Position numbers and translations under genes: made by a program
Notes under the pieces: generated by a model
What the model was told of the DNA's origin: nothing
Databases searched by the model: none
Seen by the model: the letters and a program-made list of their open reading frames with translations, nothing else
From: Wohlfahrtiimonas sp. G9077
Lineage (GTDB): Bacteria > Pseudomonadota > Gammaproteobacteria > Cardiobacteriales > Wohlfahrtiimonadaceae
DNA length: 64,000 bases
Assembly (NCBI RefSeq): GCF_002252155.1
Contig: NZ_NEFD01000002.1
Span: 1 to 64,000, forward strand
Direction of reading: 5' to 3'
Shown here: positions 37,910-49,912 of the stretch, piece by piece
Layout: the number at the start of each line of letters is the position of its first letter
Position numbering within the stretch: position 1 is the stretch's first letter

Positions 37910-39334
37910 TTAATCAAAAATAAAAGCTTTTAAATCCTCTTCATTTTTTAAAATTTTGTGTTCTTTGACGCCATGCGCTCTCGCAAGATTAATACTGCTC
38001 TCCACTAAATTGATATTACTGCGTAAATCAAATGCGATTTTTCTTAAATCTTTAATATGATCAAACTCTGCTGTTATCTTACTAACCAGTGCATGATATT
38101 TTTGATCAATATCTGACAGAAACACCTGCATTGATTCCTCCATCTGTTTTGCTAATTTCGGATCTTCCCCTAACAAGATGTTACAAACCAATTTTCCTGC
38201 CAGAGAGCCAATCACGGCACCCACAACAGGGATAGGTATGAAAGTTTGTCCCATTAATGCTGCGAGTCCAACACCTGCACTATCAGCACATAAATAGATT
38301 GCATTCATCTGAAACTCAGCAAAAGTAAGATGACCATGATGTAAATCTTGTACTAAAGAACTGACACCTTTCACAGCTGTAACAAAAGCACCTGCAATGG
38401 GCGCAGATAAACCAACACAATTAGTTAAAGCATAAACAGCAGATCCAGTAATCCCAGCGGCGATGGCTGTTTGTCCTGTATTTAAGCCAATCTCTTGCCA
38501 ATCTTCAGCGGATAACTCACCTTTAAAAATATTCTTTCCATCTTTATATTTGAGATATAAAGATGTGCCTAGCGCGAGTGCGCCTCCTACAGCTGCGGCC
38601 ACACCTGCTGCTTTTAAGCCTTCACTTAAACTCGCTGAATGGTTCTCATGTATCTTTTGTTTGAGCTCTTCATTTTGTTGTTTAAGTTCTTGCTCATGTC
38701 GATCTAATGTTTGTGTGACAGTGCCTTGTTGAACTTCAGCATATTTAGAAATGCCAGGTTGCACAACATCAGTAAAAGATCGCCCACTTTGAGTCTCGAT
38801 TTCACTAATTTTATGGTGAATTGCGTTGATTGTTTTTTGGCTCAATCCCTCAACATTTTCACCGTGATAAATTTTAAGAATGGTTTCAAAATGGTCTTTA
38901 GGTATGTGATAAAAACTGCCATCTCGACCAAAATGACTATATTTATTCATATGCTCAAGCACATGATTTAAGTTATTGTTTAAACCATTAATAAATTTTG
39001 ATTGTACAGCGATGTCATTGATTAAATAATCTTCTGGTGCCGTTCTTCCAACACCCTCAAAAGTTGCACTAAAATCTCTATTGTGAAGCGCATCTTGCGC
39101 CCTTCTAATGCCAACTTCAACTTGTTCTGCGATTTCGCCATGTTTTGTTGCAGGACTACCTAGAATTTTTGATGGATCACCAATAAAATCACGAACCTTA
39201 TCAACTTCACTGATGGCCTTGATATAAGATGTATCTTGCAGATTCAATTGAGAGATTTCATCTTGTATCCGTGTCACATTAAAATTATGAACGATCGCAC
39301 TGCTGATTTGGTCTTGGATGGATGTTGTTTTCAT
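37910..39334 (-). CDS. Unrecognised coiled-coil/membrane protein, second gene of a two-gene unit
   Basis: 474 residues, not recognised. The first 200 residues are soluble and include DKVRDFIGDPSKILG, KHGEIAEQVEVGI and YSHFGRDGSFYHIPKDHF, a region that looks like a conserved domain. A coiled coil follows (RHEQELKQQNEELKQKI). Then come hydrophobic, alanine/glycine-rich stretches (GVAAAVGGALALGTSLYL, TAIAAGITGSAVYAL, GVGLAALMGQTFIPIPVVG) able to span or insert into membrane, and a helical tail. It lies 28 nt after its partner gene. Codon use is more AT-rich than in flanking core genes. A membrane-active conflict protein is possible; no function is claimed. Confidence 0.7.
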   Translation of the reverse strand: MKTTSIQDQISSAIVHNFNVTRIQDEISQLNLQDTSYIKAISEVDKVRDFIGDPSKILGSPATKHGEIAEQVEVGIRRAQDALHNRDFSATFEGVGRTAPEDYLINDIAVQSKFINGLNNNLNHVLEHMNKYSHFGRDGSFYHIPKDHFETILKIYHGENVEGLSQKTINAIHHKISEIETQSGRSFTDVVQPGISKYAEVQQGTVTQTLDRHEQELKQQNEELKQKIHENHSASLSEGLKAAGVAAAVGGALALGTSLYLKYKDGKNIFKGELSAEDWQEIGLNTGQTAIAAGITGSAVYALTNCVGLSAPIAGAFVTAVKGVSSLVQDLHHGHLTFAEFQMNAIYLCADSAGVGLAALMGQTFIPIPVVGAVIGSLAGKLVCNILLGEDPKLAKQMEESMQVFLSDIDQKYHALVSKITAEFDHIKDLRKIAFDLRSNINLVESSINLARAHGVKEHKILKNEEDLKAFIFD

Positions 39335-39362
39335 GCTTTAGCCTTAATCATCGCATTTTGAC

Positions 39363-40217
39363 CTATAGTTCTACTTTCTTTTTTAATAACATGGCTAAGC
39401 TTTCAACATGATTTTTAATTGCGATCATCAGGTTTTTCTGTTGATGATTAAATTGCTCATAATCTAAAGTGTTTAATGATGTATCTAAAACATCCATGAA
39501 ATTTTTAATACCAATAATATGCGCTTGAGTTTCATCGCTCAAATGGGATATTTCTTTTAATGCAGCAGAAAATTGTCTATTTAATACTTCGATTTCTTGA
39601 CGTTTTTCATCTGCTTCTCGTGCAATTTTCGCATTTTTACTACGCGCAAATAATCCACTGCCCACTAATGCAAGACCACCAATCGTCCAACCAATTGGGC
39701 CTGACAATGCTAATAATGCACTGCCGCCAGCCATCCCGCTGCCACCCGCTGCGAGAGCACCGCCACCTAGCCAAGCCAATGCTGCATTTGTCGCAGCGGC
39801 ACCACTCAAAGCTGAGATTGCTGTGCCCGTAGATGCTGTCCCAAAGGTTGTGGCGATCGCCATTGCTGCTGTGGGTGCAAATGCAGCGATTCCCGCACCC
39901 GCTGCGATGCCAGCGCCTGCTGTGCCGCCTGCTTGTAGATCTATTTTGCGAGCATTATCTTGTATTTCATTCAAGACATTGTTGAAAACTTTATATTCTG
40001 TTTTATAGATTGAAAAGGTTTTATCAAATTCTTTGGGTTTATTGGCAATCGCACTGAACAAACCTTCTGCGCGTTTAATGATAGAATTGGCCTTTTCTTT
40101 ACGTAGATCCATCAAAACAGTCGATGCATCACGCACCTCTTGCCCAAGCTTTTCATATTGTTGTTTTGCATTTTTAAAATTAGCAATTGCTTGTTTTTTG
40201 AGATCGCCATTTAACAT
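39363..40217 (-). CDS. Unrecognised glycine-zipper membrane protein, first gene of a two-gene unit
   Basis: 284 residues, not assignable to a named family. An N-terminal helical region (FKNAKQQYEKLGQEV) is followed by a very Ala/Gly-rich middle (about 95-190: GTAGAGIAAGAGIAAFAP, AWLGGGALAAGGSGMAGGSA, GPIGWTIGGLALVGSGLF) that could make several membrane helices, and a C-terminal helical coiled-coil part. AAGGA precedes the ATG, and a promoter is visible upstream. Cotranscribed with the 474-residue gene. The glycine-zipper pattern resembles that of the large GTPase at 44875-46710. Confidence 0.7.
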   Translation of the reverse strand: MLNGDLKKQAIANFKNAKQQYEKLGQEVRDASTVLMDLRKEKANSIIKRAEGLFSAIANKPKEFDKTFSIYKTEYKVFNNVLNEIQDNARKIDLQAGGTAGAGIAAGAGIAAFAPTAAMAIATTFGTASTGTAISALSGAAATNAALAWLGGGALAAGGSGMAGGSALLALSGPIGWTIGGLALVGSGLFARSKNAKIAREADEKRQEIEVLNRQFSAALKEISHLSDETQAHIIGIKNFMDVLDTSLNTLDYEQFNHQQKNLMIAIKNHVESLAMLLKKKVEL

Positions 40218-40435: not shown

Positions 40436-41017
40436 CTATTTTTTAATAAATAAAATATTGATCCATTGTTCTTGGCTTGTTGGGCGATTATCTTTTGTGA
40501 TCCACATATTGAGTAATACAATATTTTCATATGATAATAATTTCAAAATTTGTGTTTCATTCATATCAATAAATAATCTTTCCCCCTGAATGCGATCTTG
40601 ATGCCCATATTTAAATGACAGATAACAAGCGCCATTATTTTTTAATGCTTTGATGATTTTCTCGATCACTTCAGGTAAACGATTGCGTTCACAATGTAGT
40701 AAAGAAGCGCATGCCCAAATGCCATCATATTTATCTGTGGCATTTAAATCATAAAAACTTTGATGTTGAATATTCAGCCCGGTTTTGAGCTTGGCTAATG
40801 TGACGAGATTTTTAGAATAATCAAATGCATTAACATTAAAGCCTAGATTTTTAAAATACAACGCATCGCGACCTGAGCCGCAACCAATATCTAAAATCTT
40901 TCCATGTTTTGGTATGAGTTTTAAAAAAGGCTCATACAGATTATGCATGTCGATATGAAAGGTATTTTCTGCGAATGTCTTTGCATTTTGATCATAAAAA
41001 TCTTGCGTTTTGCTCAT
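40436..41017 (-). CDS. SAM-dependent methyltransferase
   Basis: 193 residues. The SAM-binding motif I is KILDIGCGSGRDALYFKNLGF, motif II VNAFDYSKNLV, and DGIWACASLLHC is the motif IV region. This is a small class I methyltransferase of the Methyltransf_25/TehB-like kind acting on a small molecule or protein. The ATG at 41017 is chosen because the family pattern starts there; a longer ORF extends into the divergent HNH gene. The ribosome site is weak. It is divergent from the HNH nuclease and ends at the cysteine desulfurase fragment. Confidence 0.75.
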   Translation of the reverse strand: MSKTQDFYDQNAKTFAENTFHIDMHNLYEPFLKLIPKHGKILDIGCGSGRDALYFKNLGFNVNAFDYSKNLVTLAKLKTGLNIQHQSFYDLNATDKYDGIWACASLLHCERNRLPEVIEKIIKALKNNGACYLSFKYGHQDRIQGERLFIDMNETQILKLLSYENIVLLNMWITKDNRPTSQEQWINILFIKK

Positions 41018-41103
41018 AGAAATCGCCAATATTAGATTGATAAAAATATTTTTAATATTTAAAGTATTATCGGAATGAAAATAAATTATAGGATAATAAT
41101 TAC

Positions 41104-42159
41104 ATGTTACCAAGCGCAGAAGAACAATTAGATTTTTTGCAAAAGATACATTTGATTCTAGAAACAGGCAATACGACGTCGACATATAAATTCGCACTAT
41201 TATTGGCCATCACCAATCTTGCAATTACGCAGGGTGAGGACAGTAATCAAACGTTGACATTGAGTTATAAAGACATTGCCGAGCAATTTATTATCCAATA
41301 TTGGAAACAAAGTTTGCCTTTTGAATACGTTGAAAAAAAAGGTTTTGTTTTACAGCAAAATACTGGAGAACAAATCGTGATTATTCAGGATATTCAAAAA
41401 TTAATGGATCGATATCCCACATTATCAAAAGCGATGAAAAGTATTGAGTGGCATCCGTTGATTCAAAAGGCAGCCAAAACCATTAAAGCTTATCCGGCGC
41501 GGTTTTTACAAAATATAGAAGGGCAAAGTTTTAATTTTTTATATACTTGGCAAGCGGCGGGGACACATTTACAGTTAAATAAAAATGTTATGTATTGTCT
41601 GCGTCAATTTAATTATATTATTCGGCAATTGGTTCAAAAAAAATGGGCGGATTTTGTCCGTAAGTTACCAAAAAATAAAGAGATTTTAAAAGATCAGCAT
41701 GATATCCAAGTATTTTTATTTGATGAGCAACGCGCATCTTTGAAAAAAGTTGCCGATATTTATCGGGAATTACAAGATAATCGCTGTTTTTATTGCCAAC
41801 AAAAAATTAATGGCACCGCTGAAGTGGATCATTTTATTCCGTGGTCATATTATCAACAAGACACATTGCATAATTTTGTGATCGCAGATAAAAAATGTAA
41901 TGGTGCAAAAAGTAATTTTTTAGCGGATCCGCAATTATTGGGCCGATGGTTAGACAGAAATAAAAAATATGGTGATGAGATCCATGCAGCCTCCGAAAAT
42001 ATTGGTATTTTAAGTCATTTAGAATCGACCAAAAATATTGCACAATGGGCTTATCAGCGAGCTTTGCATAATGAAGCATTGGTTTGGACACCACCAAAAG
42101 AATTGGTTCGATTAAATCATCATAATGGCGCAGATGTGCTTCAGGAGTATTTTAAATAA
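41104..42159 (+). CDS. HNH endonuclease with N-terminal helical domain
   Basis: 351 residues. The C-terminal third has the zinc/HNH module: CFYCQQKI, then AEVDHFIPWSYYQQDTLHNF, then DKKCNGAKSN. The N-terminal two thirds (TSTYKFALLLAITNLAI near residue 24) form a helical domain found with this HNH type in restriction and defence loci. Base composition is AT-rich. It is divergent from the methyltransferase gene 86 nt away. No DNA-methylase motif is visible in that partner, so a classical restriction-modification pair is not supported. Confidence 0.78.
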   Translation: MLPSAEEQLDFLQKIHLILETGNTTSTYKFALLLAITNLAITQGEDSNQTLTLSYKDIAEQFIIQYWKQSLPFEYVEKKGFVLQQNTGEQIVIIQDIQKLMDRYPTLSKAMKSIEWHPLIQKAAKTIKAYPARFLQNIEGQSFNFLYTWQAAGTHLQLNKNVMYCLRQFNYIIRQLVQKKWADFVRKLPKNKEILKDQHDIQVFLFDEQRASLKKVADIYRELQDNRCFYCQQKINGTAEVDHFIPWSYYQQDTLHNFVIADKKCNGAKSNFLADPQLLGRWLDRNKKYGDEIHAASENIGILSHLESTKNIAQWAYQRALHNEALVWTPPKELVRLNHHNGADVLQEYFK

Positions 42160-42395
42160 ATCGCGATGATTGATTATATAAAAATATTATGTTTTAGTAT
42201 TTTTGAATGGTTGGATTATGTTGATTTTAATGTTTTTGTTGAAAATCAAATGCTTATAAATAATTTTTTGTTAAATTAATGACATATAATGGAAAAGGCA
42301 TGCAATATTTAAAAAAGCCACATGAGAATTATATTTTGCAAAAATAAACCATTAAAAAAATATGGGTGATCAATAATTAGACAATTTTCTGTACT
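42160..42395. other. AT-rich intergenic stretch left of the island
   Basis: No reading frame, RNA gene or clear terminator is seen in these 236 bases. They consist mainly of A and T runs and separate the HNH gene from the tRNA-Leu-type repeat. Confidence 0.6.
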
Positions 42396-42479
42396 GTTTA
42401 TTGAACAACTGAACTTACAGACACAAAAAAGCCTGCTGTTTAGCAGGCTTTCAAGTTTTTGTTTGGTACCGAAGGAGAG
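42396..42479. repeat. Left direct repeat (att-like) with tRNA-Leu 3' end duplication
   Basis: 84 nt matching 49759-49842 at 74 positions by my count, without gaps. The last 18 nt (TTTGGTACCGAAGGAGAG) are identical and are the reverse complement of the tRNA-Leu 3' end. The repeat also includes a terminator hairpin, GCCTGC-TGTTTA-GCAGGC, whose stem differs from the right copy by a compensated pair. It marks the left end of an island integrated at tRNA-Leu. Confidence 0.85.
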
Positions 42480-42735: not shown

Positions 42736-42936
42736 CTAACTATTTAGGATATCTAAACTATCTTGTGCTTTTATACAACATTCTGAAAAATTCGATAAAT
42801 TTTGTTCCATGATATCCAAAGCGTTGAGCATCGCTAGGGTTGCAAATAAATGCATTTCGGTTATTTGTAGATTTTTCTGGATAACTGCCGATATTACGAA
42901 ACTTAACGCTTGGGATGAATCACTATTTTCACCTAT
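42736..42936 (-). CDS. Possible small ORF after ykgJ, lacking a standard start codon
   Basis: An open frame of 66 codons reading GENSDSSQALSFVISAVIQK, then MHLFATLAMLNALDIMEQNL, CCIKAQDSLDILN. AAGGAG lies 6 nt before an ATA codon at 42934-42936, where a start would be expected. Either ATA replaced an ATG (inactivated gene), or an internal ATG is used, or initiation is at ATA. It follows ykgJ by 10 nt and would be the last gene of the GTPase operon. Helical; not recognised. Confidence 0.4.
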   Translation of the reverse strand: MGENSDSSQALSFVISAVIQKNLQITEMHLFATLAMLNALDIMEQNLSNFSECCIKAQDSLDILNS

Positions 42937-42946
42937 AAAACACTCC

Positions 42947-43222
42947 TTACGACTGTAATTTCTGACAAATTTTCACATTAACTTCAATAAAATCATCCCA
43001 AGAAATAGTTTGTGACAAATGTTTTTGGTAATATTCTTCCACTCGACATTCTAAAGGACGATTTTCATAAATAGAACACAATAGAGTTTCATCCACAAAA
43101 TGATGGCAAGTGCCATCTCCTCTATCTAAGTACATAGTTTGAGAGCTATTTCTGATGCTCTGACAACATTTACCGCAAGATGTGCAAGGAAATGGTTTGT
43201 TTAATTGGGGCTGATGACTCAT
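42947..43222 (-). CDS. YkgJ-family cysteine-cluster protein
   Basis: 91 residues. PFPCTSCGKCCQSI at the N-terminus, then DGTCHHF, LLCSIYENRPLECR and a last cysteine in VKICQKL. This arrangement (CxxCGxCC, C, CxIYxxRPxxC) is the YkgJ/UPF0153 signature, predicted to bind zinc or an iron-sulfur cluster. Its start overlaps the upstream GTPase stop by one base, so it is translationally coupled to the GTPase operon. Confidence 0.85.
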   Translation of the reverse strand: MSHQPQLNKPFPCTSCGKCCQSIRNSSQTMYLDRGDGTCHHFVDETLLCSIYENRPLECRVEEYYQKHLSQTISWDDFIEVNVKICQKLQS

Positions 43223-44865
43223 TATTTAGCATCAACTTTTGTAATTAAATGAGTTAATGTGAATAGCTGTTCCTGATGAAGAGTTTTACAACTATCTTCT
43301 AACACGATTGTCTCTTTAATTTTGTCCGTTAAATTCTTCACCCACGGGTCAAAATTTTCTTGAATATAACTAGTTATCTTTTGTGCAAATTGATCCGCAA
43401 AATCATGAGCACTATCTTCAACTTGTTGATGAAAACGTTCTCTTGCTTGGTTTTGCTGTTCTGCTTGCTGCATCATGAGCTTATCGCCTTTATCATCAGA
43501 GAATAAGTCACGCAAAGAGGTTAGAACTGTCAACGTTGTGCCAACATATGGAATCCATTTACCTACAACCGTCTGAGCCCATTTTTCCATCGTTTTAGCA
43601 CCAATGCCGGTCATCAGGGATGGTACCCAATCCTTAACAACCTGAAGCCCTTTGATAATATGATCAGGTTTGATCATCTTTGCCGCAGACTGATATGACA
43701 AAGTAACAGCATCCAGATCAAGGCTTTTATCGCTAGCCTCAAGGTTATCTGTCGCGTTATCCTCTAGCTCAATGACGGGATTCAAAGCTGCGCGTTGCAC
43801 TTGTGATTGAAGAACTAAATGTTCTATTTCTGCAATTTCATTTTGGAAACACAATGACAAGTACTTCGCTTCTTCAGCAATCATCTCAGTCATTTGTTGT
43901 GTAGATTGCTCATACACAGAGTTAATGACAGATTCAGATTGATTGGGATCTCTGAGCATTGCCGCTTTACTTTTTTGATAAATATTCTGTTGATTTTGAA
44001 TGATGCTATTCATCAAACGTCTTTTAGATTCAAAATATTGAATTTCAATTTTTTGAACTAGATTTTGATAGTGTGTGAGCAGCTCATCATTATTCACACT
44101 CTGAATATCCATTTGGCAATCGAGTAGAAAATGTTGTAATGCAGAGGATAAACGTTTGATCACATCTTGATCCGATATGCTTAATAAAAATTTATTCAAT
44201 TCTGCTTCAAACTCGATATAACCACTGGCTGCTAAGAAGGCAGGTTCTTGTCTTAAGTGGCCAGATAATGCACGTTTTGCATTGATTCTTAAAATAGGAA
44301 TATCTTTTAAGATATCGTGTAAGCCACGCTGTGAGGCAATGGACTGAATACGTTCACGCACACTATTTTTAAGGTACAGAAAGTTTTCTATTGATTGTTC
44401 ATGCTTTTCATTTAACACAAGAAATACACGTTTATGAGCGGCTAATAAATCCACTAATTTCACTAATGTATCCATCTCTTCGATGGCACCTGATGGATTC
44501 ACAACAAAGACAACGCCATCGACAGATAATAAATGTTCTTTTGTGATTGCCTCATGATCCTTTGGCGCATCGATACCGGGCGTGTCATAAATAATGAAGT
44601 TTTTCCACTTGTACTCCTGGATAACGCTGGTGGTTGGCACATCATTCATTTCGGCTTTTTCTTGGCCCAATAACGCATTGATTAATGTACTTTTACCTGC
44701 ATTGTAAACGCCATACATCATCACAGTAATGTCTAGATTGTTCTTTTTATCGTCAAATTGCTTTTGAATTGGTTCGAACTTCTTTTGCAAACTCGGATAA
44801 TTAGTTGCTTCAAGCCAATCTTTAACTTCCGTATAAAGATTAAATAATTTATTTGTAGATAGCAT
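43222..44865 (-). CDS. Dynamin-like GTPase (third GTPase of the operon)
   Basis: 547 residues. The GTPase domain (about 45-210) shows G1 GVYNAGKST, G2 threonines in DVPTTSV, G3 DTPGIDAPKDHE and a G4-like LNEKHE (NKxD degenerate). A long helical region with coiled coil follows (QNQQNIYQKSKAAMLRD, EQSTQQMTEMIAEEAKYL), then a hydrophobic patch around SLMTGIGAKTMEKW and VGKWIPYVGTTLTVL that could insert in a membrane. This fits bacterial dynamin-like/LeoA-type proteins. It is 9 nt downstream of the 611-residue GTPase and overlaps ykgJ. Confidence 0.8.
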   Translation of the reverse strand: MLSTNKLFNLYTEVKDWLEATNYPSLQKKFEPIQKQFDDKKNNLDITVMMYGVYNAGKSTLINALLGQEKAEMNDVPTTSVIQEYKWKNFIIYDTPGIDAPKDHEAITKEHLLSVDGVVFVVNPSGAIEEMDTLVKLVDLLAAHKRVFLVLNEKHEQSIENFLYLKNSVRERIQSIASQRGLHDILKDIPILRINAKRALSGHLRQEPAFLAASGYIEFEAELNKFLLSISDQDVIKRLSSALQHFLLDCQMDIQSVNNDELLTHYQNLVQKIEIQYFESKRRLMNSIIQNQQNIYQKSKAAMLRDPNQSESVINSVYEQSTQQMTEMIAEEAKYLSLCFQNEIAEIEHLVLQSQVQRAALNPVIELEDNATDNLEASDKSLDLDAVTLSYQSAAKMIKPDHIIKGLQVVKDWVPSLMTGIGAKTMEKWAQTVVGKWIPYVGTTLTVLTSLRDLFSDDKGDKLMMQQAEQQNQARERFHQQVEDSAHDFADQFAQKITSYIQENFDPWVKNLTDKIKETIVLEDSCKTLHQEQLFTLTHLITKVDAK

Positions 44866-44874
44866 GCCTAGTAC

Positions 44875-46710
44875 CTATTTCAATTCAAGCGCATGTTGAG
44901 ATTTCATATGCAATTGTTCTAATTTCGCATTGGTATCTTTCACGCTGGCTTCAATTGCTGACATAAAGATTCGAGCTTTATCCACCACACCAGTTTTAAG
45001 CGCTTTGGCCTGTTCATCGAGCACTTTCTGTAATTCATTGCCATATAGGGCAGTGGTGCTGTTACATAAATCCTGAAGATTATCGCCCACAGTCAAGGTG
45101 ATGGTTTTTGTTTCTATAGAGCTGCTTGATCCAAGAGCACCTCCAAGACCAGAACCAAGGGTTGCACCAATGGCTGCACCTGCAAAACCACCCACTAAGA
45201 AGCCACTAACACCACCAATAAGGCCGCCTAAACCACCACGTTTTGTGCGATTTCCCTTATGCATAACGGTATAGCTATCTTCAACTTGTTCTAAATTAAA
45301 TTCAGGGATATCAAAGGATGATGTTTGTACAGTTGCCACCAATGCACCATCAAGTTCTTCTGTAATGCTTGAGAAAACCTCATGAATGGCATCTTGCAGC
45401 AACGTATTGAGTTGGTTATTCCACTCGAATTTTTTAGTAGCTAATGCAGCATTCATTTGTTCCACATCATCTCTATAAGAGGCTAAAGTAGAGAAATCTT
45501 GTTCAATGGTTGCCTTAATAGAATTCTGCGCTTTTTGAATGGCTTGCGCTGAGCGACTATCAAGCGACAATGATAAACTTCGAATTGTGTGAGAGAACTC
45601 AGACAACAATGCTTGATAAGGTGATAAATCCTTCAAGCAACTATTTAAAAAGTAATTGAAGTTTTTCAATGGCGTTTGGCGTTTTAACTGCACACCCTCT
45701 TCTTGAGAGATCTGATTTAATCGAACAAATAAATCTGACATTCCACTGTTCTTTAAGTTACTGGCATTATCTGCATGTAACTCAGCATACTTTGTAGAAA
45801 CGGACAAAATCTGTAGATTATTGTGTTGAGAAGATAAGCCAATTTCAGCCAATTCCTTCAAAACAAATTGTTGCTGTTCTTTTTGTCGCTCTGGGGATTT
45901 CATGACAATCTCCGTCACGATCTCACCATCTACAATGTTTTCCTCAGTATCATCACTGCCAGTGATCAATAACACTACTTTCTTTTGCTGGTTACAGAGA
46001 TCGCATATTTCTGCTAAATCCGTCGCACGACCAGGCGCATCTGATTTCATGGTGTAAACGATCAAGTCCGCATGTTGAACATAGTCTTTAGAAAGATCGC
46101 CATTTTCACCATTAAATGAATGTAGCCCAGGCGAATCAACCCAGGTTAACCCAGGTAATTTAAATCCTTGGATAGAGCTGGTTGCCTCAATGGCACCCAC
46201 TCTAAATTGTTTAGTTTTTTCAGCTTCTTTTTCAGCATCGCCACTGGCCACATCTGTTCTTGCATGAGAAAAATACTCAGGATGTTCTGCTTTAGGGATT
46301 TGTTGCTGTATTTGTGATGAATTATCTGATTGTCCCCAGGCCATATAATTTCCCAAAGAGCTTTTACCAGATTTGACCTTACCATATACAAATACCAACA
46401 ATGAGTCTTCAAAGTCTTTTCTAAAATGAATACCTTTTTCTTTAGAATTCAATTTAGTACGCCATTCTTCGTCAATGTTTTGCAAAGCATGGAAAAAAGC
46501 TTGTACTTTCTGACGCAAAGGATTCTCGTCTGTTTTTGCTAAACTTTTCTCTGCATTTTGAATATGACTCGTAACATCTTTTGTGAAATTACGATAAATC
46601 GTTTCAAATTGGCTATCTAGCTGCTGAGCTTCTTGAAGCGAGGATTCAAAAGAATTCTGCAATTGGCGGAATGATGATAAAAACTCATTGCGGGTCATTT
46701 CTTGTGTCAT
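44875..46710 (-). CDS. Large dynamin-like GTPase with glycine-zipper membrane segment
   Basis: 611 residues. An N-terminal helical bundle (about 1-100) precedes the GTPase domain: G1 VYGKVKSGKSSLGN, G3 WVDSPGLHSF, and an ITGSDD segment where G4 (NKxD) is expected. A helical stalk follows, then a strongly glycine-rich hydrophobic region (about 490-530: GGLGGLIGGVSGFLVGGFAG, AAIGATLGSGLGGALG) preceded by basic KGNRTKRG, a likely membrane paddle. The C-terminus is helical. It probably assembles with the 547-residue GTPase, as bacterial dynamins often work as adjacent pairs. The GTPase domain has unusual acidic insertions between G1 and G3. Confidence 0.8.
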   Translation of the reverse strand: MTQEMTRNEFLSSFRQLQNSFESSLQEAQQLDSQFETIYRNFTKDVTSHIQNAEKSLAKTDENPLRQKVQAFFHALQNIDEEWRTKLNSKEKGIHFRKDFEDSLLVFVYGKVKSGKSSLGNYMAWGQSDNSSQIQQQIPKAEHPEYFSHARTDVASGDAEKEAEKTKQFRVGAIEATSSIQGFKLPGLTWVDSPGLHSFNGENGDLSKDYVQHADLIVYTMKSDAPGRATDLAEICDLCNQQKKVVLLITGSDDTEENIVDGEIVTEIVMKSPERQKEQQQFVLKELAEIGLSSQHNNLQILSVSTKYAELHADNASNLKNSGMSDLFVRLNQISQEEGVQLKRQTPLKNFNYFLNSCLKDLSPYQALLSEFSHTIRSLSLSLDSRSAQAIQKAQNSIKATIEQDFSTLASYRDDVEQMNAALATKKFEWNNQLNTLLQDAIHEVFSSITEELDGALVATVQTSSFDIPEFNLEQVEDSYTVMHKGNRTKRGGLGGLIGGVSGFLVGGFAGAAIGATLGSGLGGALGSSSSIETKTITLTVGDNLQDLCNSTTALYGNELQKVLDEQAKALKTGVVDKARIFMSAIEASVKDTNAKLEQLHMKSQHALELK

Positions 46711-46741
46711 GGTATTTCCTATCTTTTGATGTTGCCAATGC

Positions 46742-47266
46742 TTAAACGTTGAGCACTTTATCCATTAACTGACTATGATATTCTTGCAGTTCTTGCAGTT
46801 TTTGTTGTTTATCCGCTAACTCTTTTTGTATATCGGTCAAGTGGGAAGAAGGCGCAACATCGACGTTATAATACATTTTGAAACGCTGTAGATTTTTCAA
46901 TGTTGAACTATCTAAACCTTCTAATTTCAATGGGGCAACAGTGTTAATGCGTAAGTTTCCATCATCTTCTAAAATGGCCTGAAATTTACGATCAGAGTTG
47001 TAAGTCACATGGAACATTTCGATTAACATCGCTTGGAGAGCGAGGCTTGAGATTTCACCGTGCGATTTCACAGAAGATTGAATGGAAGACAATTGTTCCT
47101 CTTTCTCCTGTGCACGACGTTGTTCTTCTGCGCGACGACGACGGCGACGGCGTTCTTCATCATCATCGTCACCACCATCATTATCATCACCATCATTTGA
47201 GAATGCTTTAGCTGCCAATGCAGCGCCACCAACGATTAAACCACCAATTAGCCACGGAAGAGCCAT
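46742..47266 (-). CDS. Membrane-anchored charged coiled-coil protein
   Basis: 174 residues. A short N-terminal glycine-rich hydrophobic anchor (PWLIGGLIVGGAALAAKAF) is followed by an acidic run (DGDDNDGGDDDDEE), then an arginine run and EEQRRAQEKEEQ. A folded middle (ALQAMLIEMFHVTYNSDRKF) and a C-terminal coiled coil (IQKELADKQQKLQELQEY) follow. Not recognised as a family. It lies between the small and large GTPases in the operon, 20 and 31 nt away, and could tether them to the inner membrane. AAGGTG precedes the ATG. Confidence 0.7.
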   Translation of the reverse strand: MALPWLIGGLIVGGAALAAKAFSNDGDDNDGGDDDDEERRRRRRRAEEQRRAQEKEEQLSSIQSSVKSHGEISSLALQAMLIEMFHVTYNSDRKFQAILEDDGNLRINTVAPLKLEGLDSSTLKNLQRFKMYYNVDVAPSSHLTDIQKELADKQQKLQELQEYHSQLMDKVLNV

Positions 47267-47286
47267 AATTTCACCTTTATCTTTAA

Positions 47287-48117
47287 TTACAATTGTCTAT
47301 ATTGATTAGCACGAGTATTTAACCAGTTATGTAAGGTTTCCATTTCAGAATTGAATGGTGCCAAACTTGTGGTTAGCTGATTCTTAAGATCTTTAATATC
47401 ACATGTTAATTCTGTTTCGAGTGCATTGATCATTGCAGTCACTTCTTCGATTTTCTGAGTTTCTCTCGCGCGACGAATTTCCGAAACTTCTACACCTAAT
47501 TGTTCTAAATGATTGCTCAATTGTTTAACTTGGCTTAAATCAACCATTTGGTCTTGGTCTTTTAAGATGCCATCTTTAAATCTTTTACCAGAGACTTGGA
47601 AGATTTTAGGTTGAAAACCCAAGATGTGTTCGCATTGTTCTTGAATGCTTGACTGAATGCTTTCAATATTTTTTGTATTATCTTTATCGATTTTACTCAA
47701 AACAATGATGATGTTTTCTTCAGCATGTTCACCGAAAGATTTCTTAATTGTTGTTAAAAATTCGATTTCCTTTTGCTCAAGTTCACCTTGTAGTTGATGA
47801 ACGAATAAAATAATATCAGCTTGATCAGCACCCGCATTCGCAATCACATCATCTGCTTGTGATGCGTCTAATCCTGGAGTATCAAGGAAACAAAATTTAT
47901 CTGTTTCAAAACGTTTTAACTCGGCTGTTTCACGGACATCATTCGTCTTAAAGCATTCTGTTTCGATATGATTTGTTAGCATATTTAACAAATAACTTTT
48001 ACCGACGTTCATTAATCCCCAAGCAGCCACTACAGGCTTTGCTGATTGTGTTTGTGGAGCCTTAATAATTTTTTGTGCTTGTGCACATACATCTTCAAAC
48101 ATAAGTTTTTTGCTCAT
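47287..48117 (-). CDS. Small Era/MnmE-type GTPase (first GTPase of the operon)
   Basis: 276 residues. G1 AAWGLMNVGKSYLLNML, G3 FLDTPGLDASQADDV, G4 VLSKIDKDN, and a G5-like QVSGKRF. The last 90 residues are helical (EIRRARETQKIEEVTAMINALETEL-type heptads). It heads the operon; a likely promoter and a GTTGT/ACAAC operator-like repeat lie upstream. The weak ribosome site (AAGAATAAAATT before ATG) suggests modest expression. It is closest in motif wording to Ras-like 50S-binding GTPases, but the target is unknown. Confidence 0.8.
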   Translation of the reverse strand: MSKKLMFEDVCAQAQKIIKAPQTQSAKPVVAAWGLMNVGKSYLLNMLTNHIETECFKTNDVRETAELKRFETDKFCFLDTPGLDASQADDVIANAGADQADIILFVHQLQGELEQKEIEFLTTIKKSFGEHAEENIIIVLSKIDKDNTKNIESIQSSIQEQCEHILGFQPKIFQVSGKRFKDGILKDQDQMVDLSQVKQLSNHLEQLGVEVSEIRRARETQKIEEVTAMINALETELTCDIKDLKNQLTTSLAPFNSEMETLHNWLNTRANQYRQL

Positions 48118-48325: not shown

Positions 48326-49128
48326 TTAAGCAACCATTAAAGGTGGCTTTCCTTGGTTAGCTTGATGTGGTCTTTCATGATTATAATGCCAAAGCCACTT
48401 GGTGGCATAATTTTGTACTTCTTCAAGCGTATCAAACAGATTTTGGCTCAACCAACTATAACGTACAGTTCTATTGTAACGCTCGATATAAGCATTTTGC
48501 TGAGGATTACCTCTGAATATATTCAATGCGTATTCCTTTGTCTTTAGCCCAATCTGTCATTTGATGGCGAATAAACTCAGGGCCATTATCACATCGAATC
48601 ACAGAAAGCTTTTCTCTCCATTCTAGTAGTTGATCCAATGCTCGGTGTTGGCAGTGAAAAATCAGCTTCAATCGCTAAGCCTTCACGACGATAATCATCA
48701 ATGATGTTCAACAATCTGATTTTTCGACCATCAGATAATTGATCATGCATAAAATCTAAAGACCAAACTTGATTGGCTTTAATGGGCTCTTTCAAGGGCT
48801 CAGGTTTATTTCTTTTTAATCTCCTTTTAGGTTTAATTCGTAGATTCAAAGCAAGCTCACAATAAATTCTATAAACACGTTTATGATTCCAACGATATTG
48901 AGCAACATGGCGTAGATAAGCAAAACATATTCCAAATCCCCAATCTCTATTTTCATCAGTTAATTCAACTAGTTTTGCAGCAATTAGAGCATTCTCATCT
49001 TTAAGCTTCGATTGATATCGATAACATTTTTCACTGATATTAAATGCGATACAAGTTAGGCGAATGCTCGCTGAGCTTTGTGATACAACATCCTGAGCCA
49101 TCTTTCGACGACAAGATGGCTTTACCAC
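48326..49128 (-). pseudogene. IS3-family transposase OrfB, frameshifted
   Basis: The DDE transposase is split. The first part (from 49128) reads through [20 protein letters not shown], with the first catalytic Asp, to EADFSLP. The frame then changes and continues as [22 protein letters not shown], with the second Asp, to IEYIQR. A two-base loss in an AGAG run shifts it again to RGNPQQNAYIERYNR, with the catalytic Glu, ending HERPHQANQGKPPLMVA. A few codons are also missing after FSLP. Catalytic residues survive but lie in different frames. Confidence 0.88.
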
Positions 49129-49331
49129 TTTTTTGCCATGGCTTCTTGGATAATTTCAGCTTTTAATCTTGCCATTAATGCTGTATCCATACCGCCATAT
49201 TTTGCACGCCATTTATAAAATGTCGCGTTACTCATGCTATGCTCACGACAAAGAGCTGTCACAGGTATGCCAGCTTCAGCTTGTTTTAAAATTGCCATAA
49301 TTTGGCTATCAGTAAATTTAGATGTTTTCAT
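49122..49331 (-). pseudogene. IS3-family OrfA with in-frame internal deletion
   Basis: 69 residues. The helix-turn-helix SDSQIMAILKQAEAG-type start (KFTDSQIMAILKQAEAGIPV) and NATFYKWRAKYGG are normal. [17 protein letters not shown] shows that the leucine-zipper segment normally between MARLK and LKAEII (around 18 residues) is missing. The repeated RLK/LK coding sequence suggests slippage or recombination between short repeats. Dimerisation should be lost. Confidence 0.75.
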
Positions 49332-49640: not shown

Positions 49641-49758
49641 ACTTTCCGAAGCATATTAGATATTTTTCAATTGATTTCTTTGGTTTAAAAACGGTTTTAA
49701 ATCAGAAACAAACCATCAAAATCAGAGAATGATCAAAAAGTAGTCATTTTATTGAACA

Positions 49759-49842
49759 GTTTATTGAACAACTGAACTTCCAGATGCAAAAAAGCCCGCT
49801 GTTTAGCGGGCTCTAGAGCTTTTATTTGGTACCGAAGGAGAG
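49759..49842. repeat. Right direct repeat (att-like) overlapping tRNA-Leu
   Basis: Partner of the repeat at 42396-42479, 84 nt with 10 mismatches and no gaps. Its last 18 nt, identical in both copies, are the 3' end of tRNA-Leu plus three flanking bases. The enclosed island is about 7.4 kb. Confidence 0.85.
49788..49811 (-). terminator. Terminator of tRNA-Leu
   Basis: On the minus strand GCCCGC, TAAACA, GCGGGC, TTTTTT. The equivalent hairpin in the left repeat has T-A for C-G at the same stem position, a covarying change. Confidence 0.88.
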
Positions 49843-49912
49843 ACTCGAACTCTCACGCTTTTAAAGGCAGAGGATTTTGAATCCTCCGTGTCTACCATTC
49901 CACCACTCCGGC
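49827..49912 (-). tRNA. tRNA-Leu (anticodon CAA)
   Basis: 86 nt with a long variable arm. The 5' end is GCCGGAGTGGTGGAATGG, the anticodon loop TTCAAAA contains CAA, the T arm is GAGTTCGAGTCTC, and CCA is encoded. The acceptor stem needs two G-U pairs (positions 1-72 and 5-68). It is the integration site of the island to its left; tRNA-Leu(CAA) is also an island hotspot in enterics (leuX). Confidence 0.95.

Follow-up and report, generated by a model that had tools for sequence, protein, structure and literature searches.

A mobile operon of three GTPases, a membrane-anchored protein and a YkgJ-family protein in Wohlfahrtiimonas, with a candidate role in defence

A compact operon of five minus-strand open reading frames (ORFs) lies in a stretch of 64,000 nucleotides from Wohlfahrtiimonas sp. 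G9077 (assembly GCF_002252155.1, contig NZ_NEFD01000002.1, positions 1 to 64,000), which is referred to here as the window. Their products are a small GTPase (GTP1), a short coiled-coil protein with a membrane anchor (SMALL), a pair of dynamin-like proteins (DLP1 and DLP2) and a YkgJ-family cysteine protein.

47287..48117, minus strand: GTP1, small GTPase of 276 residues with a long C-terminal helix and a putative GIMAP/IRG/mitofusin-like GTPase fold (ORF, Pfam, model of a homologue)
46742..47266, minus strand: SMALL, 174 residues, with an N-terminal hydrophobic anchor, an acidic and serine-rich linker, a basic helix and a C-terminal coiled coil (ORF)
44875..46710, minus strand: DLP1, dynamin-like protein of 611 residues with a glycine-zipper paddle at residues 485-531 (Pfam, AlphaFold2 model)
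43222..44865, minus strand: DLP2, dynamin-like protein of 547 residues and presumed partner of DLP1 (Pfam, PDB profile matches)
42947..43222, minus strand: YkgJ-family protein of 91 residues with 8 invariant cysteines, an RGDG motif and predicted metal or Fe-S binding (PF03692)

In this order the genes are spaced by 20, 31 and 9 nucleotides, and the last two overlap by 1 nucleotide in the sequence TAATG. An earlier, sequence-only reading of this DNA had described five genes with these lengths, gaps, overlap and motifs, and had called three of the products GTPases and one a YkgJ protein. All of this holds: Pfam finds MMR_HSR1 or Dynamin_N domains in the 276-, 611- and 547-residue proteins, and the YkgJ protein carries the CxxCxxCC domain (PF03692, 29.6 bits against a cut-off of 23). 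The same reading had left room for a sixth gene, and this we reject. The stretch at 42736-42936 is open and has no plausible start codon, and tblastn found no relative in the one neighbour gene tested.

The gene set is a real, widespread and conserved module, and its members occur together far beyond chance. A scan for DLP2 across 84,980 species genomes gave 64 loci; 50 of these (L025-L074) contain the DLP1-DLP2 pair, and the remainder are other cyanobacterial dynamins. Adding the window and three loci from plasmids brings the set to 54. GTP1, SMALL, DLP1 and DLP2 are all present in 41 of them, always in one order and on one strand, with gaps that are mostly below 30 nucleotides or are small overlaps; one locus (L054) additionally has broken gene pieces. 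Nine of the 13 incomplete loci are of the Acetobacteraceae type and hold the dynamin pair alone. Of the other four, one is cut at a contig end (L033), two carry SMALL and GTP1 as a fusion (L071, L072) and one has a 133-residue SMALL-like ORF in place of SMALL (L073). Four Pseudomonas loci are near-duplicates, so these counts overstate independence. Tree distances of DLP1, DLP2 and GTP1 are correlated (Mantel r = 0.91-0.98), and plasmid searches with any of the three returned largely the same records, 29 Klebsiella-group plasmids together with Photobacterium and Acetobacter, the Acetobacter match of the GTP1 query coming only via its dynamin. The conserved core is these four genes. The earlier reading had proposed all five as the set; YkgJ is a clade-specific accessory outside the core.

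The system is rare and patchy, like mobile accessory systems. DLP1 occurs in one of 369 evenly drawn Gammaproteobacteria, and that one is the window's own genome. A GTP1 query in related genomes found only distant GTPases, and a megablast search with the Klebsiella cassette gave no matches in E. coli genomes. No published description of this gene set was found in the literature searched, which did not cover bioRxiv as such or most subscription journals. The system is apparently undescribed, as the sequence-only reading had supposed, and a description elsewhere is possible.

GTP1 matches MMR_HSR1 (4e-12) and AIG1 (1e-7) in Pfam, and its P-loop residues G34, G39, K40 and S41 and the DTPG motif at 79-82 are kept in 42 of 42 homologues. 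SMALL has a single hydrophobic N-terminal stretch in all 41 homologues; it matches no Pfam family significantly and gave no meaningful match against plasmids or the PDB. Its basic helix would lie in the cytoplasm according to the positive-inside rule. The two proteins form a single chain in two distant lineages (L071, L072), with SMALL at the N-terminus of GTP1. Because of these fusions, SMALL is more aptly seen as the partner of GTP1 than as a coiled-coil protein alone. A model of the L072 fusion shows a GTPase with an 80-residue C-terminal helix and further helices in the SMALL part, and places the anchor with low confidence. The GTPase part resembles structures of mitofusin, GIMAP7, GIMAP2, Irga6 and Toc33/34; Foldseek gave good GIMAP and IRG matches, with Toc34, mitofusin and EF-Tu at similar levels.

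DLP1 and DLP2 both look like dynamins. DLP1 matches Dynamin_N (8e-8), and its P-loop (110-117) and DSPG motif (192-195) are nearly invariant in 52 homologues. Its AlphaFold2 model (predicted local distance difference test score, pLDDT, 81.5) shows a GTPase domain and a trunk of long helices; the glycine-rich loop 485-531 that forms the predicted paddle is placed at low confidence between two strands. The best structural matches of this model are BDLP, mitofusin 1, IniA, CjDLP1 and LeoA. DLP2 matches MMR_HSR1 (2e-16) and Dynamin_N (2e-9), and its sequence-based PDB profile matches are CjDLP (5owv), BDLP (2j68) and LeoA (4aur); its motifs GVYNAGKST and DTPGIDAP are nearly invariant in 54 homologues. 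The P-loop and DxxG motif are intact in both proteins. For DLP1 the model, and for DLP2 the sequence alone, predicts a membrane paddle on a long helical trunk. GTP1, DLP1 and DLP2 are all probably active GTP binders, because the P-loop and DxPG motif are kept in practically all homologues.

In one large clade (the window, L025-L029, L031-L033, L035-L037 and L039-L049) most members have the YkgJ gene directly after DLP2, and the gene usually overlaps the DLP2 stop codon. In another lineage it occupies a second position, between GTP1 and SMALL (L052, L054). Eight cysteines and RGDG are invariant in the 26 aligned module-adjacent members, the window copy included. FliB holds a [4Fe-4S] cluster through a related cysteine motif (PMC8598068), and by analogy the window protein may bind Fe-S as well. 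Plasmid relatives of YkgJ end a different cassette, which consists of a WYL regulator, in some cases TerB, a glycine-rich PDC-M09A-like protein, a PDC-M40B-like protein of about 545 residues and YkgJ, the PADLOC names being taken from the L052 copies. This second cassette is found on Klebsiella, Vibrio and Acetobacter plasmids (L109 3811-7267, L110 2794-7252 and L112 4207-7309), of which the first two have the WYL gene; in Allochromatium it stands next to the dynamin cassette (L052 11954-15019). YkgJ therefore looks like an accessory common to two membrane-type cassettes. As a separate observation, a fourth GTPase with a DUF697 domain stands directly after YkgJ in a Pseudomonas subclade (L036 9962-11101, with relatives in L037, L043, L046 and L047).

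The operon sits within an insert of about 7.4 kb at a tRNA-Leu gene, and the features that bound and surround it are as follows.

42367..42479: left copy of a 113-nucleotide direct repeat, a duplicated tRNA-Leu 3' end with its terminator
42427..42452, minus strand: terminator-like hairpin downstream of the operon and inside the repeat; the regional count of such sites is not above that in shuffled sequences
48326..49331, minus strand: broken remnant of an IS3-type transposase between the operon and the tRNA gene, in three ORF fragments; the name IS3 (insertion sequence 3) comes from reading the sequence
49730..49842: right copy of the 113-nucleotide repeat, overlapping the tRNA-Leu 3' end and present as a single copy in congener G001
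49827..49912, minus strand: tRNA-Leu(caa), the integration site, with the same tRNA at this site in congeners

The two repeat copies are 84% identical to each other. Congener G001, which is 92% identical around the site, has one repeat copy and no operon, that is, an empty site. The flanking repeat, which includes the 3' end of the tRNA, and the empty site of G001 fit an integrative element at a tRNA gene, and the tRNA-island location given by the sequence-only reading is thereby confirmed. The ORFs between the window repeats include no integrase. Integrase-like ORFs, recognised by eye, are present at such repeats in congeners; G004 has them close to the repeat and G005 on its contig. In congener G002 (L122, L123, contig C1) a second repeat copy lies about 30 kb from the same tRNA-Leu site; by reading of the ORFs, this stretch appears to be a phage-like insert, with genes that resemble phage structural genes and, adjoining the repeat, an integrase-like ORF. 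Two further gene groups lie to the left of the insert. A candidate defence pair, PDC-M09A/M09B, is found at 37910-40217 (PADLOC, 1e-112 and 9e-199), and it is a gain separate from the operon, its 2.6-kb stretch being missing in G001. At 40436-42159 the 5' end of a TehB-like methyltransferase ORF on the minus strand overlaps that of an HNH protein on the plus strand; the true start of the methyltransferase is probably further downstream. G001 has both genes as well.

The surroundings of the module in other genomes point to defence. A WYL domain was found in 12 of 119 flanking proteins, set against a baseline of 33 matches in 40 whole genomes that comes from different genomes and gives an order of magnitude only. 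Nine loci have a WYL gene on the same strand as GTP1 that ends within 600 bp upstream of it, and the transposase remnant of the window stands where several relatives have this regulator. WYL proteins control bacteriophage exclusion (BREX), cyclic oligonucleotide-based anti-phage signalling systems (CBASS) and other defence loci (PMC9122601, PMC9122588). In L042 JukAB comes after YkgJ, in L055 GTP1 is preceded by PLD-like and helicase-like proteins, and other flanks include a CARF-PDDEXK nuclease, a type III methyltransferase, a type I specificity subunit and PDC families. In Photobacterium the cassette lies on the same strand between cas1-cas2-csm6 and RAMP/cas6 genes, in a type III-like locus of clustered regularly interspaced short palindromic repeats (CRISPR), and a gene related to Photobacterium Csm6 is present in L063. 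A family of about 215 residues that matches neither Pfam nor PADLOC also recurs near the cassette, sometimes beside a WYL gene (L025 10435-11109, with relatives in L040, L045, L041, L036, L050, L039 and L029).

Several known proteins share features with the system. DLP1 in its model has the GTPase domain, long helical trunk and glycine-rich tip of BDLP, CjDLP1/2, mitofusin and IniA, and the arrangement as a pair recalls CjDLP1/2; unlike these, the pair here is tied to an additional GTPase-anchor unit, and identity to the solved chains is about 11-15%. The modelled GTPase domain of a GTP1 homologue matches GIMAP and IRG proteins, which are membrane-linked immune GTPases, about as well as it matches Toc34, mitofusin and EF-Tu. 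GTP1 is bacterial, however, its anchor is on a separate and sometimes fused protein, and the likeness is one of fold only. DynA of Bacillus subtilis is a dynamin-like protein known for membrane surveillance and phage tolerance (PMC8844932); unlike the present set it is a single fused dynamin without GTP1, SMALL or YkgJ (general background and PMC4159319). The YkgJ protein shares the CxxCxxCC metal motif with other PF03692 proteins and FliB, from which it differs in its 91-residue length with RGDG, the lack of a methylase part and its link to membrane cassettes. 'Dynamins' of the Pseudomonas fluorescens island I55, which may or may not belong to this family, were inactive on the phages tested there (PMC12595487).

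We think it fairly probable that the operon is an accessory, horizontally moved system that acts at the inner membrane against phages or other mobile elements. In lineages that keep a WYL regulator, this protein would hold expression down until infection or damage releases it. The N-terminal helix of SMALL would sit in the inner membrane, with its coiled coil in the cytoplasm holding GTP1, and this anchor-switch unit would recruit or activate a DLP1-DLP2 heterodimer. The glycine-zipper paddle of DLP1 may then insert into the membrane, which would be deformed, sealed or permeabilised as the two dynamins assemble, driven by GTP. This would block entry of phage DNA, replication or lysis, possibly at the cost of the cell. 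YkgJ could tune or modify the membrane component through a metal or Fe-S centre; it would be an add-on, because four genes suffice in other lineages. Gene content, order and co-inheritance, the fusion, the conserved GTP-binding motifs, the predicted dynamin fold, the mobile context and the association with the regulator are established here. We infer the protein contacts beyond the fusion, the membrane action, the trigger and the outcome, as well as the terms 'membrane-remodelling machine' and 'switch' that the sequence-only reading had used. More tentatively, and with some doubt on our part, the set may represent a new class of innate immunity in which a membrane-anchored GIMAP/IRG-like switch loads a dynamin heterodimer onto the membrane during infection. 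YkgJ, as a metal or Fe-S protein, would then be a modulator that also serves a second and unrelated membrane cassette, and the whole would be a prokaryotic parallel to interferon-induced GTPase immunity.

The main rival, which we regard as unlikely, is a membrane-stress or repair system comparable to DynA surveillance, which would protect against toxic compounds as a mobile fitness trait and against phages as a side effect. The membrane surveillance and phage tolerance ascribed to DynA fit it. It also draws on two-gene sets of a GTPase and a short DLP1-like dynamin that lacks the paddle region (L106 7514-10362, L107 6499-9368, L108 6514-9380), two of which (L106, L107) sit within plasmid benzoate (ben) or catechol (cat) catabolic clusters, where a role in protecting the membrane during aromatic degradation is possible. 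These pairs form a separate, shorter branch without DLP2 and SMALL, however, and the WYL enrichment and the defence and CRISPR neighbours belong to the full set. It is quite improbable that the operon is instead a divergent Eleos or LeoABC system, with DLP2 as LeoA, DLP1 as LeoBC, a function in vesicle release or Eleos-type defence, and some extra genes. Both are tandem dynamin-like GTPases with a glycine-rich paddle in accessory islands, the C-terminus of DLP2 matches LeoA (4aur), and PADLOC aligns LeoA with DLP2 end to end (8.6e-32) and LeoBC with DLP1 (5.7e-17) and DLP2 (1.8e-31). Yet the LeoBC model gives 426 bits for a genuine locus (L102, in G087) against 106-108 for DLP2 and 60 for DLP1. 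The LeoA-like protein of 565 residues from that locus reaches 25 bits with the DLP1 profile and falls below threshold with the DLP2 profile, and the NCBI LeoA model NF041922 gives 17 bits against a cut-off of 325. Compared with one genuine locus and the library models, the window proteins thus appear not to be orthologous to LeoA or LeoBC. With scores so far below those of the genuine locus we rejected membership in Eleos. GTP1 and SMALL are constant here, often with YkgJ and WYL, and are absent from LeoABC as published (PMC4159319). The system may still work like a dynamin-pair defence. A function for the plasmid or element itself, such as entry exclusion or maintenance, is very unlikely. The many copies on conjugative Klebsiella-group plasmids and the tRNA-site insert of the window agree with it, but many other copies lie in unrelated genera on contigs of chromosomal type, and the copies have no constantly linked gene for transfer or partition.

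Several observations weigh against an anti-phage role. The window copy has the transposase remnant and no WYL gene, several flanks are metabolic (for example L032), and Acetobacteraceae-type loci retain just the dynamin pair. SMALL is without a recognised fold and its anchor is modelled at low confidence. Searches for DLP1 in phage genomes and for DLP2 in viral contigs gave no matches, and the shorter GTPase with a DLP1-like relative in catabolic clusters fits membrane-stress repair equally well.

Bacterial dynamins have been described mostly in pairs, and what these pairs do is unclear. The set described here, marked by strong co-inheritance and defence-type regulation, ties such a pair to an upstream candidate GTPase switch, a membrane anchor and a predicted metal protein, and the role of the pairs becomes directly testable. 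It also suggests a possible defence-linked role for YkgJ, a common and uncharacterised small cysteine protein. If the system is defensive, it would be a bacterial parallel to the antiviral GTPases of animals (GBP, IRG, GIMAP and Mx).

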